Source: Candidatus Hydrogenedentota bacterium (GTDB taxonomy: Bacteria > Hydrogenedentota > Hydrogenedentia > Hydrogenedentales > SLHB01). From it: a DNA stretch of 44,190 nucleotides. Positions 37,265 to 44,190 of this stretch are shown in pieces (the stretch's first letter is position 1; each line of letters opens with the position of its first letter). Location: assembly GCA_019695095.1 (NCBI GenBank), contig JAIBAQ010000029.1, positions 1 to 44,190 of the forward strand. The letters are read 5' to 3'. The notes under the pieces are model-generated. The model saw only the letters and a list, made by a program, of their open reading frames with translations, had not been told where the DNA came from and did no database searches. Made by a program: the position numbers and the translations under genes.

Positions 37265-37310
37265 CACTCGCCACTGACTCCAGGATGTCCGTGCCCGCCC
37301 ATGCCCGCCC

Positions 37311-37340
37311 GTGTCAGTCCGTGTCAGTCCGTGTCAGTCC
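37311..37340. repeat. Ten-base tandem repeat, three copies of GTGTCAGTCC
   Basis: Three perfect copies plus a partial GTG after them, with degenerate CCGTGCCCGCCC units before (37290-37310). It lies between the 3' ends of the YihY and GCS2 genes, where no coding frame is expected. Confidence 0.9.
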
Positions 37341-37423
37341 GTGCTGTGGCGTGGTCTCCTGACCGCGCCACTCTTACGACCGAAGGTCTCCACTGCGTCC
37401 GGCGCTCGTCCGTGTGCTCTCCC

Positions 37424-38668
37424 CTAAAACATCTCGCCCGCCGCCAGGCACTCGCACAGCTTCCCATAGACCTCTTTCACACGCAGCCGCGATAAATCTC
37501 CATCCAACGCGCGTAATATTCGACGGGCTAGTGACCCCTTCTGCGCAATACGATTCAAGGGAATCATAACCTCGGGGGACGCGTCGGTGAGCACGGACTC
37601 AAACAGGTGCTGCCACAGCTCACCGGCGGTGGCTGAAGCAGTATCCAATCCGAACGCACTCAGATAGTGCCGATTCGTGATCACCGCCGACTCCGCATCG
37701 CAAACTGCGGCCTGCAGGATCGCAAAGAGCGGTTCCACGTCCCACGTCTTCTGTTCCGCGTACGAAAGGAATCGCTCTTCACACAATGCACGCAACACGT
37801 CCGCGATTGCCGTCACTATGGCCAGATCGGCCTGCGGACATTCTTGAATGTCCAGCACGCGAATTTCGATCGTGTTGCGATCGAATCGCGCGATCGCTCC
37901 GCGCGCATTCAACCACTCCTCCTGCAACGTGCCCTCGGAATCATACGGCGCAATGTCCCGGTACATCCGCTGCAAGATCTCTCTCTCGTAGGCTTCGGGC
38001 GAGAACACCGCCTCCGGGATCACACGACCCGTCACCGAAGGCACTTTCGCGCAGTTGCCCCGGTACGCCTCCATGCGATTGTCTAGAAACTCGCCCGCCA
38101 TCAGTTCGAACACAGGCGAACTTGCTGCCAACGCAGGCATAACCGGCATCAGCATGCGTATCGCCGCATGAAGCCGCCCAAACTCGTCCGCGTTCGCAAA
38201 CGGCAGATTAAGATGCACGCTCTGCAGATTCGACCAGCCGTGCCCCTGACACCCGAAGATCCGGTCAAAAGCGTTGTAGATCTCCATGTTCTCGTGAGGC
38301 CACAGGCGCGTCTCCGTGAGCGGATCCATCCACGGATGCATCGCCGTCGGCATCAGCCGCGCGTTCAGCGGCTGGAGCAGACTGTCTATCTCGACAATCT
38401 GCTCCTGAAACGTCTTATACACGCCATCCAACGCGGAGACTGGATTCGTCGTCTTCAATTCCACGACGTGCAGCGCCAACTCGTTCGACCAGCTTAAGAG
38501 ACCCCGATCGACCGATATTTCCGGACCGCTTTCGGCGCCTTCGCCCGCGGCAGCCGCCAGCAGGCGATCGGCAATCGGCAAAATCGAAAGCGTCTCGCGG
38601 TCGACGATCATGTACTCCAATTCGACGCCATAGCCCTTGAATAAATGCAGGCAAAGGGGAGAAGTCAT
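37424..38668 (-). CDS. Carboxylate-amine ligase of the GCS2 (glutamate-cysteine ligase 2) family
   Basis: A 414-residue protein of the glutamine-synthetase-like amidoligase fold. The N-terminal FKGYGVELEYMIVDRETL is the GCS2 signature (GxExE type); WSNELALHVVELKTTNP follows. The catalytic core includes HPWMDP and the metal-binding GWSNLQSVHLNLPF. The C-terminal arm has RFDRNTIEIRVLDIQE. Members use ATP to form amide bonds, classically glutamate plus cysteine, but the role in this cassette is unknown. Its ATG (38668) overlaps the stop of the RimK-like gene by four bases (ATGA), so the two are coupled. Confidence 0.88.
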   Translation of the reverse strand: MTSPLCLHLFKGYGVELEYMIVDRETLSILPIADRLLAAAAGEGAESGPEISVDRGLLSWSNELALHVVELKTTNPVSALDGVYKTFQEQIVEIDSLLQPLNARLMPTAMHPWMDPLTETRLWPHENMEIYNAFDRIFGCQGHGWSNLQSVHLNLPFANADEFGRLHAAIRMLMPVMPALAASSPVFELMAGEFLDNRMEAYRGNCAKVPSVTGRVIPEAVFSPEAYEREILQRMYRDIAPYDSEGTLQEEWLNARGAIARFDRNTIEIRVLDIQECPQADLAIVTAIADVLRALCEERFLSYAEQKTWDVEPLFAILQAAVCDAESAVITNRHYLSAFGLDTASATAGELWQHLFESVLTDASPEVMIPLNRIAQKGSLARRILRALDGDLSRLRVKEVYGKLCECLAAGEMF

Positions 38669-40140
38669 TTTTCGGGTCTTGCTTCCGTGAGTTTCTCAAG
38701 GCGCCGCAGAAAGACCTCCATGACCTTGAGGTACAATTCGTCTTTCAGCACGCGATCCTCGAACCCGGCTTCAACGCTGGGGTTGTCGTTTACCTCGATG
38801 ACGTATGTGCGCCGCCCGCTTTCCTTGAGATCGACGCCGTAGAATCCGTTTCCGATGAGTTTTGCCGCGCGCAACGCGGTGCTGACGACCTGCGCCGGCG
38901 CTTCGCTCACGGGCAGTGTGTCCACCTTGCCGTAGTGTTTCTTGCCGACCTGGTCCGTGCGTTGAATCTGCCAATGATTCTCGGCCATGTAGTACCGGCA
39001 CACATACAGCGGTTTCCCGTCAAGTATCCCCACGCGCCAATCGTATGGCGTCGGCAAGAACTCCTGCGCCAACACCAAATCCGATTCCGACAACAGCTCT
39101 TCGACTTTGTCGTGAAGGCTTGCCTCGTCCGCCGCCTTATAGACTCCGAGCGAAAACGAGCTGTCGGGCTTTTTCAGAATGCACGGAAGACCTATTTTCG
39201 GAATGATGTCTTCGACATTGGCCTTGTGCACAATCAATGTCTTCGGGATGCGCACCCGGTGCAGATCGAGCAGTTCCGTCAAATACACTTTGTTGCCGCA
39301 TTTGACGATAGAATCCGGATCGTCGATGACCACCATTCCCTCCGCAAATGCCCTGCGCGACCAACGGTAGGTGTGGTGATCAACAAGCGTCGTCTCGCGT
39401 ATGAACAAGGCATCGTACTGCGGCAACGAACCGTAATCGTCTTTCTCCAGCAACTCCGCGTCCATGTCGAGTTCCCGCGCCGCCTTGATGAACTTGTTCA
39501 GCGCGCGTTCGTTCGAAGGCGGATCGGATTCTGTTGTGCTGTGGAGAATCGCGATGTCATAGCGCGATTGCGTACGCCATGTCGTTCCAGCACGATACCG
39601 ACGGAAATAGTCCGTCGCGAGTTCGATGACGAACGGATGATGCGTCTCCGGAATCTCGTTAGCGGAAATAACGCGCAAACTGCGCAACTGCCACCCTTCA
39701 TCTTCCGTGTGCACGAAGTTGGCGCGCATTAGCGGACACTGGAACAAACGGAAAATGTACCCGGCCAACTTATCGTAACGCTTGGCCACGTTGCGCCCGA
39801 AATAGATGCTCAGCGTGAATTCGTGGGAGTGAATGTGCTTCAGACTGTTCTGAATCAGCTCGTCCAGTTCGTCCGATGCCAGCCGGATGATGGCTGCCGT
39901 CTTGATGTCCTGAATCGTTTCGATGCTCGGCAGGGGCTTGTGCCCTCGCGCCGTCGCCAACAACGACACGTAGTACCCCGTGCTCTGATACCGGTACGTC
40001 CGGCACAGATTGAACACCCGCGCGCCCCGCAAGCGGTAGTACTTGGGGTCGGTCAGATAATCCCGCGCGGCAACGACTTCGCATCCCGAAATCTTCAGGG
40101 GCCAATTGCGGGGTTTGTTAACGACTATAAGAACCGACAT
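38665..40140 (-). CDS. RimK-like ATP-grasp ligase with RLAN N-terminal domain
   Basis: A 491-residue ligase. The first about 200 residues (VVNKPRNWPLKISGCEVVAA to NEIPETHHPFV) match the RLAN domain that precedes some RimK-type ATP-grasp enzymes. From about 205 the ATP-grasp proper follows: DALFIRETTLVDHHTYRW, the ATP-binding lysine segment GLPCILKKPDSSFSLGVYK, and the metal-binding end YVIEVNDNPSVEAG. These enzymes couple carboxyl groups to amines, including adding glutamates to peptide tails. The gene directly abuts the C39-like gene (stop 40141) and overlaps the GCS2 gene. Confidence 0.92.
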   Translation of the reverse strand: MSVLIVVNKPRNWPLKISGCEVVAARDYLTDPKYYRLRGARVFNLCRTYRYQSTGYYVSLLATARGHKPLPSIETIQDIKTAAIIRLASDELDELIQNSLKHIHSHEFTLSIYFGRNVAKRYDKLAGYIFRLFQCPLMRANFVHTEDEGWQLRSLRVISANEIPETHHPFVIELATDYFRRYRAGTTWRTQSRYDIAILHSTTESDPPSNERALNKFIKAARELDMDAELLEKDDYGSLPQYDALFIRETTLVDHHTYRWSRRAFAEGMVVIDDPDSIVKCGNKVYLTELLDLHRVRIPKTLIVHKANVEDIIPKIGLPCILKKPDSSFSLGVYKAADEASLHDKVEELLSESDLVLAQEFLPTPYDWRVGILDGKPLYVCRYYMAENHWQIQRTDQVGKKHYGKVDTLPVSEAPAQVVSTALRAAKLIGNGFYGVDLKESGRRTYVIEVNDNPSVEAGFEDRVLKDELYLKVMEVFLRRLEKLTEARPEK

Positions 40141-40854
40141 TCAGCTCTTGTTGGCCTTTGGCTCGATGAGCAGCAAGTTTCCGTCGTAGGTCAGGACGCC
40201 CAGCAAGATAGCGCACAGCACCCGATCAATACTAACCGAATAGAAGTGATCCTTCGCAAACGGATTTGGTTCCAACGGATCGGCCACCAGCACTTCTCTG
40301 TGATCCGAATCGTACCCGCACAGGACCACAAAATGCCCTTGGGGATCCCCGCGAATATCGTCCCACTCGTTCTTCGGCCCGTATTCGCGCGGACACTGGT
40401 ACAAATACGTCGAACTCAATCCCGTCAACACCGGTGTCGATTGAGTGAGGATTCGCTCCAGAAGGCTTACCGTCAGCTCCTCAAAGAGGACGCGCCCTCC
40501 AAGCTTCAATACATCGATGTACGCGCGCACCGCCTTCTTGCGCTTCTCCGAGCGCGAGTAATGCAGCCGGCTCTCCAACTTGTCAATCAGAGCGACCGGC
40601 GGAAGCGACTGCCACGTCGGATCGAATATGCGCAGGTTGTACGAATAGAGCGACACATCGTACCCCCGGCGCAACGCATGACCCGCCAACAGCGATGCCA
40701 GCGTGCCGCCTTCTTCCAGGCTGGGAGTCTCTTTGATGACCTGGTCGAGCTCTATATCGTCCCCAAAATAATGATATACAGCATGCAGACATGTCGGTCC
40801 GCATGTTGTGTCGTCGGGCTGCGGAAGTATTTCAAGATGCGTCGCGCTGTTCAT
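40141..40854 (-). CDS. C39-like papain-fold peptidase
   Basis: A 237-residue cysteine peptidase. The start QPDDTTCGPTCLHAVYHYFG gives the oxyanion Gln12 and catalytic Cys18. His174 lies in PQGHFVVLCGYD and Asp192 in VADPLEPN, completing the triad. There is no membrane helix or ABC domain, so it is not a bacteriocin exporter; it would act in the cytoplasm. It is the first gene of the three-gene cassette and its stop abuts the next start. The ATG at 40854 has a weak AGG four bases upstream. The role may be to trim or reverse the modification made by the ligases. Confidence 0.87.
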   Translation of the reverse strand: MNSATHLEILPQPDDTTCGPTCLHAVYHYFGDDIELDQVIKETPSLEEGGTLASLLAGHALRRGYDVSLYSYNLRIFDPTWQSLPPVALIDKLESRLHYSRSEKRKKAVRAYIDVLKLGGRVLFEELTVSLLERILTQSTPVLTGLSSTYLYQCPREYGPKNEWDDIRGDPQGHFVVLCGYDSDHREVLVADPLEPNPFAKDHFYSVSIDRVLCAILLGVLTYDGNLLLIEPKANKS

Positions 40855-40884: not shown

Positions 40885-42147
40885 TTATGCCACGCGATGG
40901 TGCGCACGGCCTAAGACAACTTGCTCCGTGGCCGGATCGAAATAAAGCGTGCGGCCTTGCTTGAATGCCTCGACCCCCATCCCGATAGCCACCATCGTCC
41001 TGTAAGACATCTCTTCATCACACACGCACTTCTCGCGCGTACGGATGCATCGAACCCAATTGTCGAAGTGCTCTTCCCGTTCGCCCGCGGGGAGCTCGAT
41101 GCCCCGTTCCTGGCCAAACCGCGCTTGCACGTCCTTGCGAAATTCGTACTCGGCCTCGATGGTAAGGCCGCTTTCGGCTACGTACATCGTCGCCTCACGC
41201 CCACGAATGACCGCCGGCAACTCCCCTGCGCTTGCTGCCGACGACGCAAGAACCACCGTGCGGCTGTTGGGAAACTCGCAAGTTACCACAAACGAGTCCG
41301 GCGCCTCGCGACCATCCTGCGCATACACACCGCCCGCCGCCGACACGCGAACCGGGAACTCCGCCCCGAGGGCGACCATCAAACCGGCCAGCTTCTCGTA
41401 ATGCTGATCGGTCGCGACGCCGCCGCTGTAGTCCCAATACTTGCGCCATCCCAAATATCGGTCTTCGGTGAATGGGCGCTTCTCCGCGGAACCCACGAAT
41501 GCGTCCCAATCCAAAGTCGCCGGAGTCACATCGCGGAAATCCTGCGCTACCTGCGCCTGCGCCGCGCGTGGACGGTAATTCTCCTGACTCCACAGAATCG
41601 GTCCCAGCTTCCCCGACGCAACAATCTCATGCGCCGCATGCCACTGAGGCTCCGATGCCGATTGCGACCCGATCTGCACAACACGTTTTGTGGTGGCTGC
41701 GGCGTCCCTGAACGCCCTGGCCTCCTCGATGCTGTGCGCCATTGGCTTTTCGCAGTACACGTCCTTGCCTGACTGCATCGCCGCAATCGCGATAGGCGCA
41801 TGCCAATGATCTGGCGTTGCGATTACGACCGCATCGATATCCGGACGTTCAACGAGATCCTGCCAGCGATGCAGCAGTTCTCCGCCGCTCGCGGCTTGTG
41901 CGCGCAGCTTGCGCGGCTCGAAGATGTCGCACACCGCCGCCACGCGGACGTTCAGCGACGCGCTCTTGGCCGTCGCTTCGCGAAGCAACTGCATACCGCG
42001 GTTGCCCATCCCAATGATGCCCAAGCGTATCCGGTCATTCGCGCCCAATGTGCGCGCGGCGGCCCTCGGCGCGCCTGCCGCAACACCCGCCGCCAACGCC
42101 GCCGAAAGCGAGATGAACTTCCGTCGCGTGATTCCGGTTTGCTTCAT
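40885..42147 (-). CDS. Tat-exported Gfo/Idh/MocA oxidoreductase
   Basis: A 420-residue protein. Residues 1-31 are a twin-arginine signal (TRRKFISLSAALAAGVAAGA, Arg8-Arg9). The NAD-binding fold reads GIIGMGNRG at 43-51. VIATPDHWHAPI and the signature YCEKPMAHS (Glu133-Lys134-Pro135) are intact. The C-terminal domain has HYEKLAGLMVALG and conserved GREAT-type turns. Export suggests the NAD(P)-bound, folded enzyme oxidises sugars in the periplasm. It ends 30 bases before the C39 gene, so some read-through is likely, and follows the DUF1080 gene by 109 bases. Confidence 0.92.
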   Translation of the reverse strand: MKQTGITRRKFISLSAALAAGVAAGAPRAAARTLGANDRIRLGIIGMGNRGMQLLREATAKSASLNVRVAAVCDIFEPRKLRAQAASGGELLHRWQDLVERPDIDAVVIATPDHWHAPIAIAAMQSGKDVYCEKPMAHSIEEARAFRDAAATTKRVVQIGSQSASEPQWHAAHEIVASGKLGPILWSQENYRPRAAQAQVAQDFRDVTPATLDWDAFVGSAEKRPFTEDRYLGWRKYWDYSGGVATDQHYEKLAGLMVALGAEFPVRVSAAGGVYAQDGREAPDSFVVTCEFPNSRTVVLASSAASAGELPAVIRGREATMYVAESGLTIEAEYEFRKDVQARFGQERGIELPAGEREEHFDNWVRCIRTREKCVCDEEMSYRTMVAIGMGVEAFKQGRTLYFDPATEQVVLGRAHHRVA

Positions 42148-42256: not shown

Positions 42257-42955
42257 TTACTTCTTAGCCGGAAGCGTCTTAATCCGCAGATTACGGAACT
42301 CCACCGAATCCGAATGGCTCTGCAGACCGATATACCCCTTTGCCGGGCGGTTATCTGCAGGCTTCTGCCATTCCTCTTTTACGGTGTCCTTCGTGAAGTC
42401 AGTGACCTTCACGTCATAGACTTCCTGGCCATTAAGGATGGTCTTGATTCGTGGGCCGTCGGCCATGACTTCAACCGTATTCCATTCGCCAAACGGTTTG
42501 TCGGCTTCCACCTTCACCGGTTGCACCGCGTACAACGAACACGCCCGCTGATACGGCGTCGGCCAACCAGGACGCAGCACCTGAATCTCAAATCCGTCAA
42601 ACGCGGGATTGCCTACCTTGGGCGCGCGAATGCCAACACCCGAGTTGCCTTCGCCGGACACGCAACGGTATTCATAACGAAGAACGAAGTTGTCGTACTC
42701 TTCGTTTGTGAACATCCAATCGCCGCCCTCTTTCCCCGTCACGAGTATCTTGCCGTCTATTGCCTGATACGCTTCTTTGTTCGTGCCGCGAATCCACCAG
42801 CCATCGAGATTCTTGCCGTTAAACAGCGGAACAAATCCGTCCTTCGCCTCATCCGCCGTGAGAATCCCCTGCGCCACATAATCCGGTTTTTCCTGCGCCT
42901 GAACCATCGCCATGAACCCGAGCATAAGCGCAAAAACAACGACTGTTTTCTTCAT
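42257..42955 (-). CDS. DUF1080 (3-keto-disaccharide hydrolase-like) secreted protein
   Basis: A 232-residue exported protein. Signal peptide 1-19 (TVVVFALMLGFMAMVQA). The jelly-roll domain begins DGFVPLFNGKNLDGWW, the diagnostic start of DUF1080, with WMFTNEEYDNFVLRYEYRC, SGEGNSGVGIRA and FDGFEIQVLRPG following. Some members cleave 3-keto-glycosides made by Gfo/Idh dehydrogenases, which are encoded on both sides here. The frame is open to 43063; the ATG at 42955 has AAGGGGG upstream and puts the signal peptide first. Confidence 0.9.
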   Translation of the reverse strand: MKKTVVVFALMLGFMAMVQAQEKPDYVAQGILTADEAKDGFVPLFNGKNLDGWWIRGTNKEAYQAIDGKILVTGKEGGDWMFTNEEYDNFVLRYEYRCVSGEGNSGVGIRAPKVGNPAFDGFEIQVLRPGWPTPYQRACSLYAVQPVKVEADKPFGEWNTVEVMADGPRIKTILNGQEVYDVKVTDFTKDTVKEEWQKPADNRPAKGYIGLQSHSDSVEFRNLRIKTLPAKK

Positions 42956-43050
42956 ACCAACCCCCTTGTGCCAATTGCCGGCCGTGTGCGCCATGCCGCG
43001 AATCAGAGACTCCGGCCCTTGCTTTCCAGCCGAATATGCCATTTTGAAGA

Positions 43051-43079
43051 CTGGCGGCCCCACATCGCGAGGCCGCCAG
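43051..43079 (-). terminator. Hairpin between the Gfo/Idh and DUF1080 genes
   Basis: CTGGCGGCC (43051-43059) pairs perfectly with GGCCGCCAG (43071-43079) across an 11-base loop. On the minus strand TCTTCAAAATGG follows, so termination may be partial. The heptamer repeat 43094-43125 lies just before it. Confidence 0.55.
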
Positions 43080-43132: not shown

Positions 43133-44190
43133 TTAGGCTTTCCAACCCTCAAAATACGGCGCCTTCAACGACCAGCCATTCTGATACGGACGGTACGCCC
43201 ACTCATTCGCGATCTTGACACCCTCGGCATCGCCGCCCGTGAACTTGACTGTCTTCGGGTCCCACTTCAACTTCGCGCCGCTGAGATACGCGCACTTACC
43301 CGTCAAGCAAATCAGCGCCGTGCGATACGCGACGTCGATATTGCAGATCGGCGCTTGGCGCGAACGCACGCAATCCGCGAAGTTTGCCCAGTGGCCATTG
43401 TTCATGTCGCCCTCGGCGGCGTCGTTCTTGAGAACAGGTTCGCACCCGCCGTTGTCGCGGAACGGGAACACCTGATAGCCCTTCCGGTCCACGCGCATGC
43501 TCCCCAACGTCCCGTGGAAGAAAATTCCATGTCCCGGGCTCTTCTCCACCCAATCCGGATTCCACGCGCGGTTCGAGAAGCTCAACGAATAGTCCTCGAA
43601 CTCCCACACCACATCCAGCGTGTCCGGCGTTGTCCGGTTATCCTTCAACACGAAATTGCCGCCCGCGCCCGTGACCGTCTTGATGTCCTTATCCTGGCCC
43701 ATGGCCCAAATCGCGATGTCGAGCAGGTGCGTGCCCCAGTCCGTGATCTTCCCGCCCGAATAATCCGTGAACCAGCGGAAATTGTAGATATACCGGTTCT
43801 TGTTGTACTCGACCTTCGGCGTCCAGCCAATGTATCGATCCCAATCCAACCAATCCGGCTTCGGGTCGGTCGGATTGCCAATGCCTTCCACCTTCGACCA
43901 GTCGTTGTTCCAGCACTCCACGCGCCCAACCTTGCCGATATACCCCTTCTGGATCATATCGACCGCTTCCTGGAAATACTTGCCGCTGCGCTGCATCGTG
44001 CCCGACTGATACACCTGCTTCGAAGACTTGATCTTGTCACGCAGCGTATTGGCCTCTTCGATGGTCGCGCACAAGGGCTTTTCGCAATACACGTCCTTGC
44101 CCGCGTCAATCGCCATCAACGTCGGCACCGTGTGCCAGTGATCCGGCGTAACGACCACGACCGCATCCACGTCCTTATCCGCAATGACTT
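43133..44190 (-). CDS. Gfo/Idh/MocA oxidoreductase, C-terminal part (cut by window edge)
   Basis: At least 352 residues are visible; the frame stays open to the window end (VIADKDVDAVVVVTPDHWH). The EKP motif is intact in DVYCEKPLCATIEEA. The substrate domain includes FRWFTDYSGGKITDWGTHLL with the conserved Asp-x-x-x-His pair, and GTLGSMRVDRKG. The set of residues closely matches the group of exported dehydrogenases found in Planctomycetota and related phyla. The NAD-binding N-terminus and any Tat signal lie outside the window. The gene is upstream of DUF1080 and the Tat Gfo/Idh gene on the same strand. Confidence 0.92.
   Translation of the reverse strand, partial: VIADKDVDAVVVVTPDHWHTVPTLMAIDAGKDVYCEKPLCATIEEANTLRDKIKSSKQVYQSGTMQRSGKYFQEAVDMIQKGYIGKVGRVECWNNDWSKVEGIGNPTDPKPDWLDWDRYIGWTPKVEYNKNRYIYNFRWFTDYSGGKITDWGTHLLDIAIWAMGQDKDIKTVTGAGGNFVLKDNRTTPDTLDVVWEFEDYSLSFSNRAWNPDWVEKSPGHGIFFHGTLGSMRVDRKGYQVFPFRDNGGCEPVLKNDAAEGDMNNGHWANFADCVRSRQAPICNIDVAYRTALICLTGKCAYLSGAKLKWDPKTVKFTGGDAEGVKIANEWAYRPYQNGWSLKAPYFEGWKA

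Follow-up and report, generated by a model that had tools for sequence, protein, structure and literature searches.

A conserved cassette of a C39-family peptidase, an RLAN-RimK ligase and a GCS2-family ligase that may make and recycle a small amide

Introduction

Glutathione is synthesized by two sequential ATP-dependent ligases, GshA and GshB, which pair a glutamate-cysteine ligase fold with an ATP-grasp enzyme and can be fused, as in GshF. Here we describe a three-gene cassette that resembles this pair, located in a 44,190-nucleotide stretch of DNA from a Candidatus Hydrogenedentota bacterium (assembly GCA_019695095.1, contig JAIBAQ010000029.1). The stretch, hereafter the window, is one entire contig of a 6.77 Mb genome. 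The cassette encodes a papain-like cysteine peptidase/amidase of the C39 family, an RLAN-RimK ATP-grasp carboxylate-amine ligase and a GCS2-family carboxylate-amine ligase of the gamma-glutamyl ligase type. It differs from GshA/GshB and GshF in its RLAN domain, in carrying a RimK-type ATP-grasp instead of GshB, and in its hydrolases (C39 and, in many relatives, an amidohydrolase of the FGase family); where its ligases are fused the order is RimK then GCS2, unlike that of GshF. Against the curated NCBIfam cut-offs, the scores fall far below those of GshA and GshB orthologues (18.9 versus 272 for glutathione synthase, 28.7 versus 249 for gshA_cyano).

Glutamate ligases opposed by a protease of their own have published precedents in RimK/RimB (PMC11957791) and RloABC (PMC12239564). 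RimK/RimB and RloC/RloA resemble the cassette in that the gene for a RimK-type ATP-grasp ligase has that of a dedicated protease next to it, but the partner in the cassette is a papain-like C39 enzyme and not a RimB-type retropepsin, a second ligase (GCS2) or a GNAT is present, and the ligase has an RLAN domain at its N-terminus. Fusions of DUF3335 and GNAT have also been described, in a paper that cites Iyer et al. 2009 for them (PMC10318531). Such fusions stand beside RLAN-RimK proteins that form a sister clade of the same family, and their C39 domain is homologous to that of the cassette; they differ in that GNAT replaces GCS2, FGase is missing, the peptidase is fused, and the genes, although adjacent, are often divergently transcribed.

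In glutathionylspermidine synthetase/amidase (GspSA), an ATP-grasp-type ligase and a papain-like amidase act on the same amide bond; its amidase, however, belongs to the CHAP family and is fused to the ligase, and it has neither a GCS2 nor an FGase partner. The 2009 study by Iyer and colleagues is said to report links between diverse amidoligases and peptidases, and the trio described here may be drawn there. The GNAT-DUF3335 link has been published already, and the amidoligase-peptidase links probably have been too. What the present analysis adds is that the two ligases can be fused, how often FGase accompanies them, that the partner is swapped once in the tree and that the hydrolases are dispensable, although parts of this may already be in print.

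Organization of the cassette

The initial annotation had described three minus-strand genes packed with zero gap and a four-base overlap, and this holds base for base. The peptidase gene (40854-40141, 237 aa) ends with a TGA at 40143-40141, and the ATG of the RLAN-RimK gene (40140-38665, 491 aa) starts at the very next base, 40140. The TGA of the latter, at 38667-38665, is overlapped by the ATG of the GCS2 gene at 38668-38666, forming an ATGA; the GCS2 gene itself spans 38668-37424 (414 aa) on the same strand. The peptidase matches Peptidase_C39_2 (E 4.9e-10) and Peptidase_C39 (E 3.8e-7) and has no transporter domains. In RLAN-RimK the RLAN domain (PF14401, E 7.3e-50) covers residues 25-172 (39625-40068, minus strand) and is followed by the RimK-like ATP-grasp catalytic domain (PF08443, E 6.3e-10) at residues 283-458 (38767-39294, minus strand). 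GCS2 matches PF04107 above its cut-off (E 2e-22). Profile scans of the host genome found a single RLAN gene, a single GCS2 gene and no FGase.

Conservation across phyla

We scanned one genome per species and, from at least 549 relatives of the ligase, kept the best 80 loci, which as the closest relatives bias the sample towards the GCS2 version of the system. C39, RLAN-RimK and GCS2 were all full length in 61 of the 66 loci with enough flanking DNA, which rules out a chance adjacency of the three genes. The order C39, RLAN-RimK, GCS2 is kept in nearly all of these 61, of which one is reordered. Two loci from Chlamydiia have the peptidase gene shifted to the 3' end, still within the cluster. 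Median gaps are 5 bases between C39 and RimK, -4 between RimK and GCS2 and -8 between GCS2 and FGase. The relatives represent 17 named phyla, one of them by an archaeal metagenome-assembled genome (MAG), although some MAG names are doubtful and phyla counted once need caution. With the trio adjacent across at least 17 phyla, the proposal of the initial annotation that two different amide ligases and a papain-like peptidase form one unit, to be found together elsewhere, is supported.

Outside the cassette the wider neighbourhood is unrelated between loci. No conserved upstream partner was seen, since a co-directional open reading frame (ORF) lies close upstream of the peptidase in only 15 of 68 loci, and these ORFs are of unrelated kinds. 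A search of all ORFs of 15-80 aa within 900 bp of 67 full cassettes gave only FGase fragments or matches shared by three closely related loci, which bears out the earlier remark that no precursor peptide adjoins the cassette. The peptidase, a single domain of 237 aa with no conserved small ORF nearby, does not correspond to the C39 leader peptidases of ABC exporters. In one Pirellulaceae MAG a gene for a fusion of GNAT with a carbon-nitrogen hydrolase (L014:8302-9861) is inserted between C39 and RLAN-RimK.

In Hydrogenedentota the ligase gene is patchy (9 of 68 genomes). Of the 294 Planctomycetota sampled, 57 have a strong match to GCS2 (E below 1e-80). No match was found among 50,697 phage records, so a phage origin finds no support there, and viral contigs yielded no more than three relatives, whose similarity lies outside RLAN. 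On contigs classed as viral, RimK-like ATP-grasp genes without an RLAN domain occur at L097 and L098 (5977-6912) and at L099 (6040-6918); that of L097 lies among apparent phage structural genes, and that of L099 overlaps a GNAT gene.

Catalytic residues and predicted folds

The catalytic residues pointed out in the initial annotation (C18/H174/D192 of the peptidase, the ELEY motif of GCS2 and the end of the ATP-grasp) are real and invariant in relatives. Q12, C18, H174 and D192 of the peptidase are kept throughout an alignment of 39 relatives, and this Q-C-H-D set together with the profile match places the protein in the Peptidase C39 superfamily. Among 41 GCS2 sequences the ELEY residues E16 and E18 are invariant, as are H111, N154, R264, E268 and R270, and among 46 RLAN-RimK sequences the same is true of K284, K323, D437, E449 and N451. 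The GVD and E-x-N residues of the latter align with those of Pseudomonas RimK, whose structure is solved, and the succession of RLAN and a RimK ATP-grasp with its catalytic residues identifies the protein as a member of the RLAN-RimK family.

The predicted model of GCS2 (predicted local distance difference test, pLDDT, 94) has a carboxylate-amine ligase fold, in agreement with its profile match and ELE motif. Its nearest solved folds are YbdK and the plant and E. coli glutamate-cysteine ligases (E 1e-12 to 1e-11), followed by GshF (3ln6/3ln7). Dop and PafA match more weakly (1e-5 to 1e-4), so that the ligase is not nearest to the enzymes of pupylation. The RLAN-RimK model (pLDDT 88) matches RimK, LysX/ArgX and Ddl over ~300 residues, with a TM-score by query length of ~0.47 that reflects the ATP-grasp half only; the whole-model search is dominated by this half, where all the matches fall, with none over the RLAN domain. 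Finally, the GNAT-ATP-grasp, amidotransferase and M42 peptidase models of the N-acetylglutaminylglutamine amide (NAGGN) osmolyte operon are absent among the NCBIfam matches that the three proteins give at E values of up to 0.1.

Ligase fusion, a fourth partner and a dispensable peptidase

In five planctomycete loci (L175-L179) RLAN-RimK and GCS2 form a single stop-free ORF of 974-1022 aa containing both profiles in order. The C39 gene lies directly upstream of the fusion in L178 and L179, and in L179 FGase lies directly downstream. Taken with the overlap seen where the genes are separate, this fusion is the best indication we have that the ligases catalyse successive steps.

The initial annotation had suggested looking for a fourth conserved partner, and one was found, although it is missing from the window genome. 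A gene for an FGase-family amidohydrolase lies directly 3' of GCS2 in 44 of the 61 loci with room for it. All 31 of these proteins that were tested carry PF05013, with 2odf as the nearest solved structure (E 1.9e-36), and a relative from the same family as the window organism (L091) has the gene. FGase is nevertheless an optional addition, because genomes without the operonic copy usually have no copy at all (15 of 16). In L022 (5520-6728) and L029 (12913-14127) FGase extends to a longer protein of ~400 aa, the extra part in L022 being a Nudix domain.

The peptidase is dispensable as well. In three Hydrogenedentota genomes (G056, G112 and G113), whose completeness is 82 to 98%, RLAN-RimK and GCS2 are present but no cassette-type C39 was found anywhere, and DUF3335 is missing in six of eight GNAT-only genomes. 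The two ligases are therefore the core of the system and the hydrolases are dispensable. Since the synthetic pair can stand without a hydrolase, cutting followed by capping is unlikely to be obligatory, and hydrolases that recycle or tune the product fit better. The first suggestion that the cassette makes and trims a peptide or tag is compatible with these data, but "make and break or recycle" is better supported.

The remark that no exporter adjoins the cassette is correct for the window but does not extend to all relatives. A transporter of one MFS subfamily occurs near the cassette, upstream or downstream, in four of the 80 relatives, which belong to two phyla (L026:7837-9273, L034:7691-9169, L049:6157-7548 and L084:14585-16009).

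A sister version with GNAT

RLAN is carried by 62 of 349 Pseudomonadota genomes, from which we fetched 40 loci, favouring higher RLAN scores. A GNAT gene adjoins RLAN-RimK in 39 of them, as a GNAT-C39 fusion (DUF3335, PF11814) in 31 of the 39, and neither GCS2 nor FGase is found nearby in any of the 40. These GNAT partners match the general Acetyltransf_1 family. In a tree of 83 RLAN-RimK proteins, built by a quick method with a simple model, the partner changes only once between GCS2 and GNAT, with a support of 100 for the GCS2 side. The C39 domains of cassette and fusion are homologous (hhalign probability 96.9, E 1.6e-10), and Q12, C18, H174 and D192 of the cassette peptidase align with the corresponding Q, C, H and D in the fusion protein. 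As GNAT replaces GCS2 in the sister clade, the constant theme appears to be RLAN-RimK with an N-acylating enzyme and a C39 hydrolase. The fusions beside RLAN-RimK (L102:6763-7989 and L135-L174) are often divergent from it, with a short shared intergenic region.

A plasmid record of P. aeruginosa contains a solo RLAN-RimK in the vicinity of ggt, an asparaginase and a glutamate transporter. This protein is presumably PA1345. PA1345 is listed with an upstream CpxR-type site (PMC12802237), which hints at an envelope-stress link for the sister version.

Proposed function and alternatives

It is very likely that the cassette makes and recycles one small compound or a protein tag, and the C39 enzyme probably cuts amide bonds. 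More specifically, we read it as a self-contained cytoplasmic module that makes and breaks a small non-ribosomal amide, a gamma-glutamyl amide or peptide, by a two-step route like that of GshF, with a probability of about 45%. GCS2 would use ATP to join a carboxylate to an amine; its fold relatives make the gamma-carboxylate of glutamate the most likely donor. RLAN-RimK would activate a second carboxylate and join it to another amine, and the two ligases would thus yield a short gamma-glutamyl peptide or amide, following the two-step logic by which GshA and GshB in turn, or GshF as a fusion, make glutathione. The C39 enzyme would work against the ligases by hydrolysing one of the amide bonds they form, much as RimB counteracts RimK, and the amount of product could in this way be raised or lowered. 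In many relatives, though not in the window genome, the FGase metal amidohydrolase may provide a second breakdown step. We lean towards a free small molecule because there is no precursor gene and the MFS transporter recurs.

Several points weigh against this assignment. FGase is named an N-formylglutamate hydrolase by homology only, and RimK itself modifies a protein, so that enzymes of these types could instead attach a tag to a protein; a permanent tag, too, would be compatible with hydrolases that are optional. The transporter link, at 4 of 80, could be chance. The tight gene gaps and the correlation between the pairwise distances of the proteins (Mantel r 0.61-0.72, with none of 500 permutations as high) speak for the proposed module, but the correlation stems in part from shared organism history. 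Under the gene-family names, the literature yielded no paper describing the gene set, the substrate or the product of any member.

The alternative that survives best, although we consider it rather unlikely, is a reversible protein modification. The target, a protein with its gene elsewhere in the genome, would have its ends capped or extended, by RimK at a C-terminus and by GCS2 or GNAT at an amine; C39 would then take the tag off, in the way that RimB strips glutamates from ribosomal protein S6. RimK attaches glutamate to RpsF, from which RimB takes it off again (PMC11957791; PMC12239564), and the best solved relatives of RLAN-RimK include the protein-modifying RimK and LysX/ArgX. The membership of the GNAT partners in a general acetyltransferase family and the distant fold kinship of GCS2 with Dop and PafA point the same way, and a protein target common to all bacteria would be consistent with a cassette found in so many phyla. 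However, the cassette is not accompanied by a gene for such a target, the closest relatives of GCS2 are YbdK and the glutamate-cysteine ligases instead of PafA/Dop, the ligases are fused as for one small-molecule pathway, and an MFS transporter is sometimes linked.

That the cassette stands in for glutathione, making a low-molecular-weight thiol in organisms that lack it, seems improbable. A GCS2 with an ATP-grasp enzyme is the enzyme pair of glutathione synthesis, GshF is a fold relative, the ligase fusion parallels it, and the window genome has no other GCS2. Yet a true glutathione synthetase (PF02955, E below 1e-50; weaker matches were not counted as GshB, as other ATP-grasp proteins reach such scores) coexists with the cassette in 10 of 48 genomes, which makes glutathione itself an unlikely product in these carriers. 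RLAN-RimK is not a GshB orthologue, as its NCBIfam scores indicate, and since the sister clade has GNAT in place of GCS2, gamma-Glu-Cys is not a general requirement of the family.

We give still less credit to a cut-and-cap scheme, in which C39 would cut a peptide or protein, GCS2 or GNAT would cap the new amine and RLAN-RimK the new carboxylate. It would suit the sister clade, where peptidase and N-acyltransferase are usually one polypeptide, but the existence of cassettes without any peptidase of the cassette family argues against cutting as an obligatory first step. Maturation of a ribosomally synthesized, graspetide-like peptide with a leader peptidase is largely refuted, for although C39 peptidases and ATP-grasp ligases both occur in graspetide loci (PMC8939145), the cassette has no conserved small ORF beside it, no C39-ABC transporter and no maturase, and its ligase is of the RimK/RLAN type with a clade of its own.

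Significance and neighbouring features

As the catalytic residues are invariant across at least 17 phyla and the ligases are fused in some lineages, the product of the cassette must be worth both keeping and breaking. The cassette would offer a compact route to a new metabolite or tag, with three or four soluble proteins, no precursor gene and no membrane parts. We put forward, more tentatively, that RLAN-RimK ligases are the hub of a widespread system in two versions (GCS2 or GNAT, each with C39), present in roughly a fifth of the sampled Planctomycetota and Pseudomonadota genomes, which might make and recycle a new class of N-capped small peptides or amides; if true, this would be a new cytoplasmic metabolite family with a spread comparable to that of minor thiols or dipeptide osmolytes. 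Cultured carriers include Tautonia sociabilis and Rhodohalobacter sulfatireducens and, for the sister version, Azospirillum.

Upstream of the cassette, the minus strand of the window encodes two Gfo/Idh/MocA oxidoreductases and a 3-keto-disaccharide hydrolase of the DUF1080 type (40885-42147, 42257-43063 and 43133-44188), the first gene of the group ending 30 bases before the start of the peptidase gene. They were considered as conserved partners and rejected, since genes like these recur ahead of the cassette in closely related Hydrogenedentota alone (L008 and L010); the arrangement is probably lineage synteny. Just 3' of the GCS2 stop there is a direct repeat of ~10 bases (ccgtgtcagt), at about 37310-37345 of the window.

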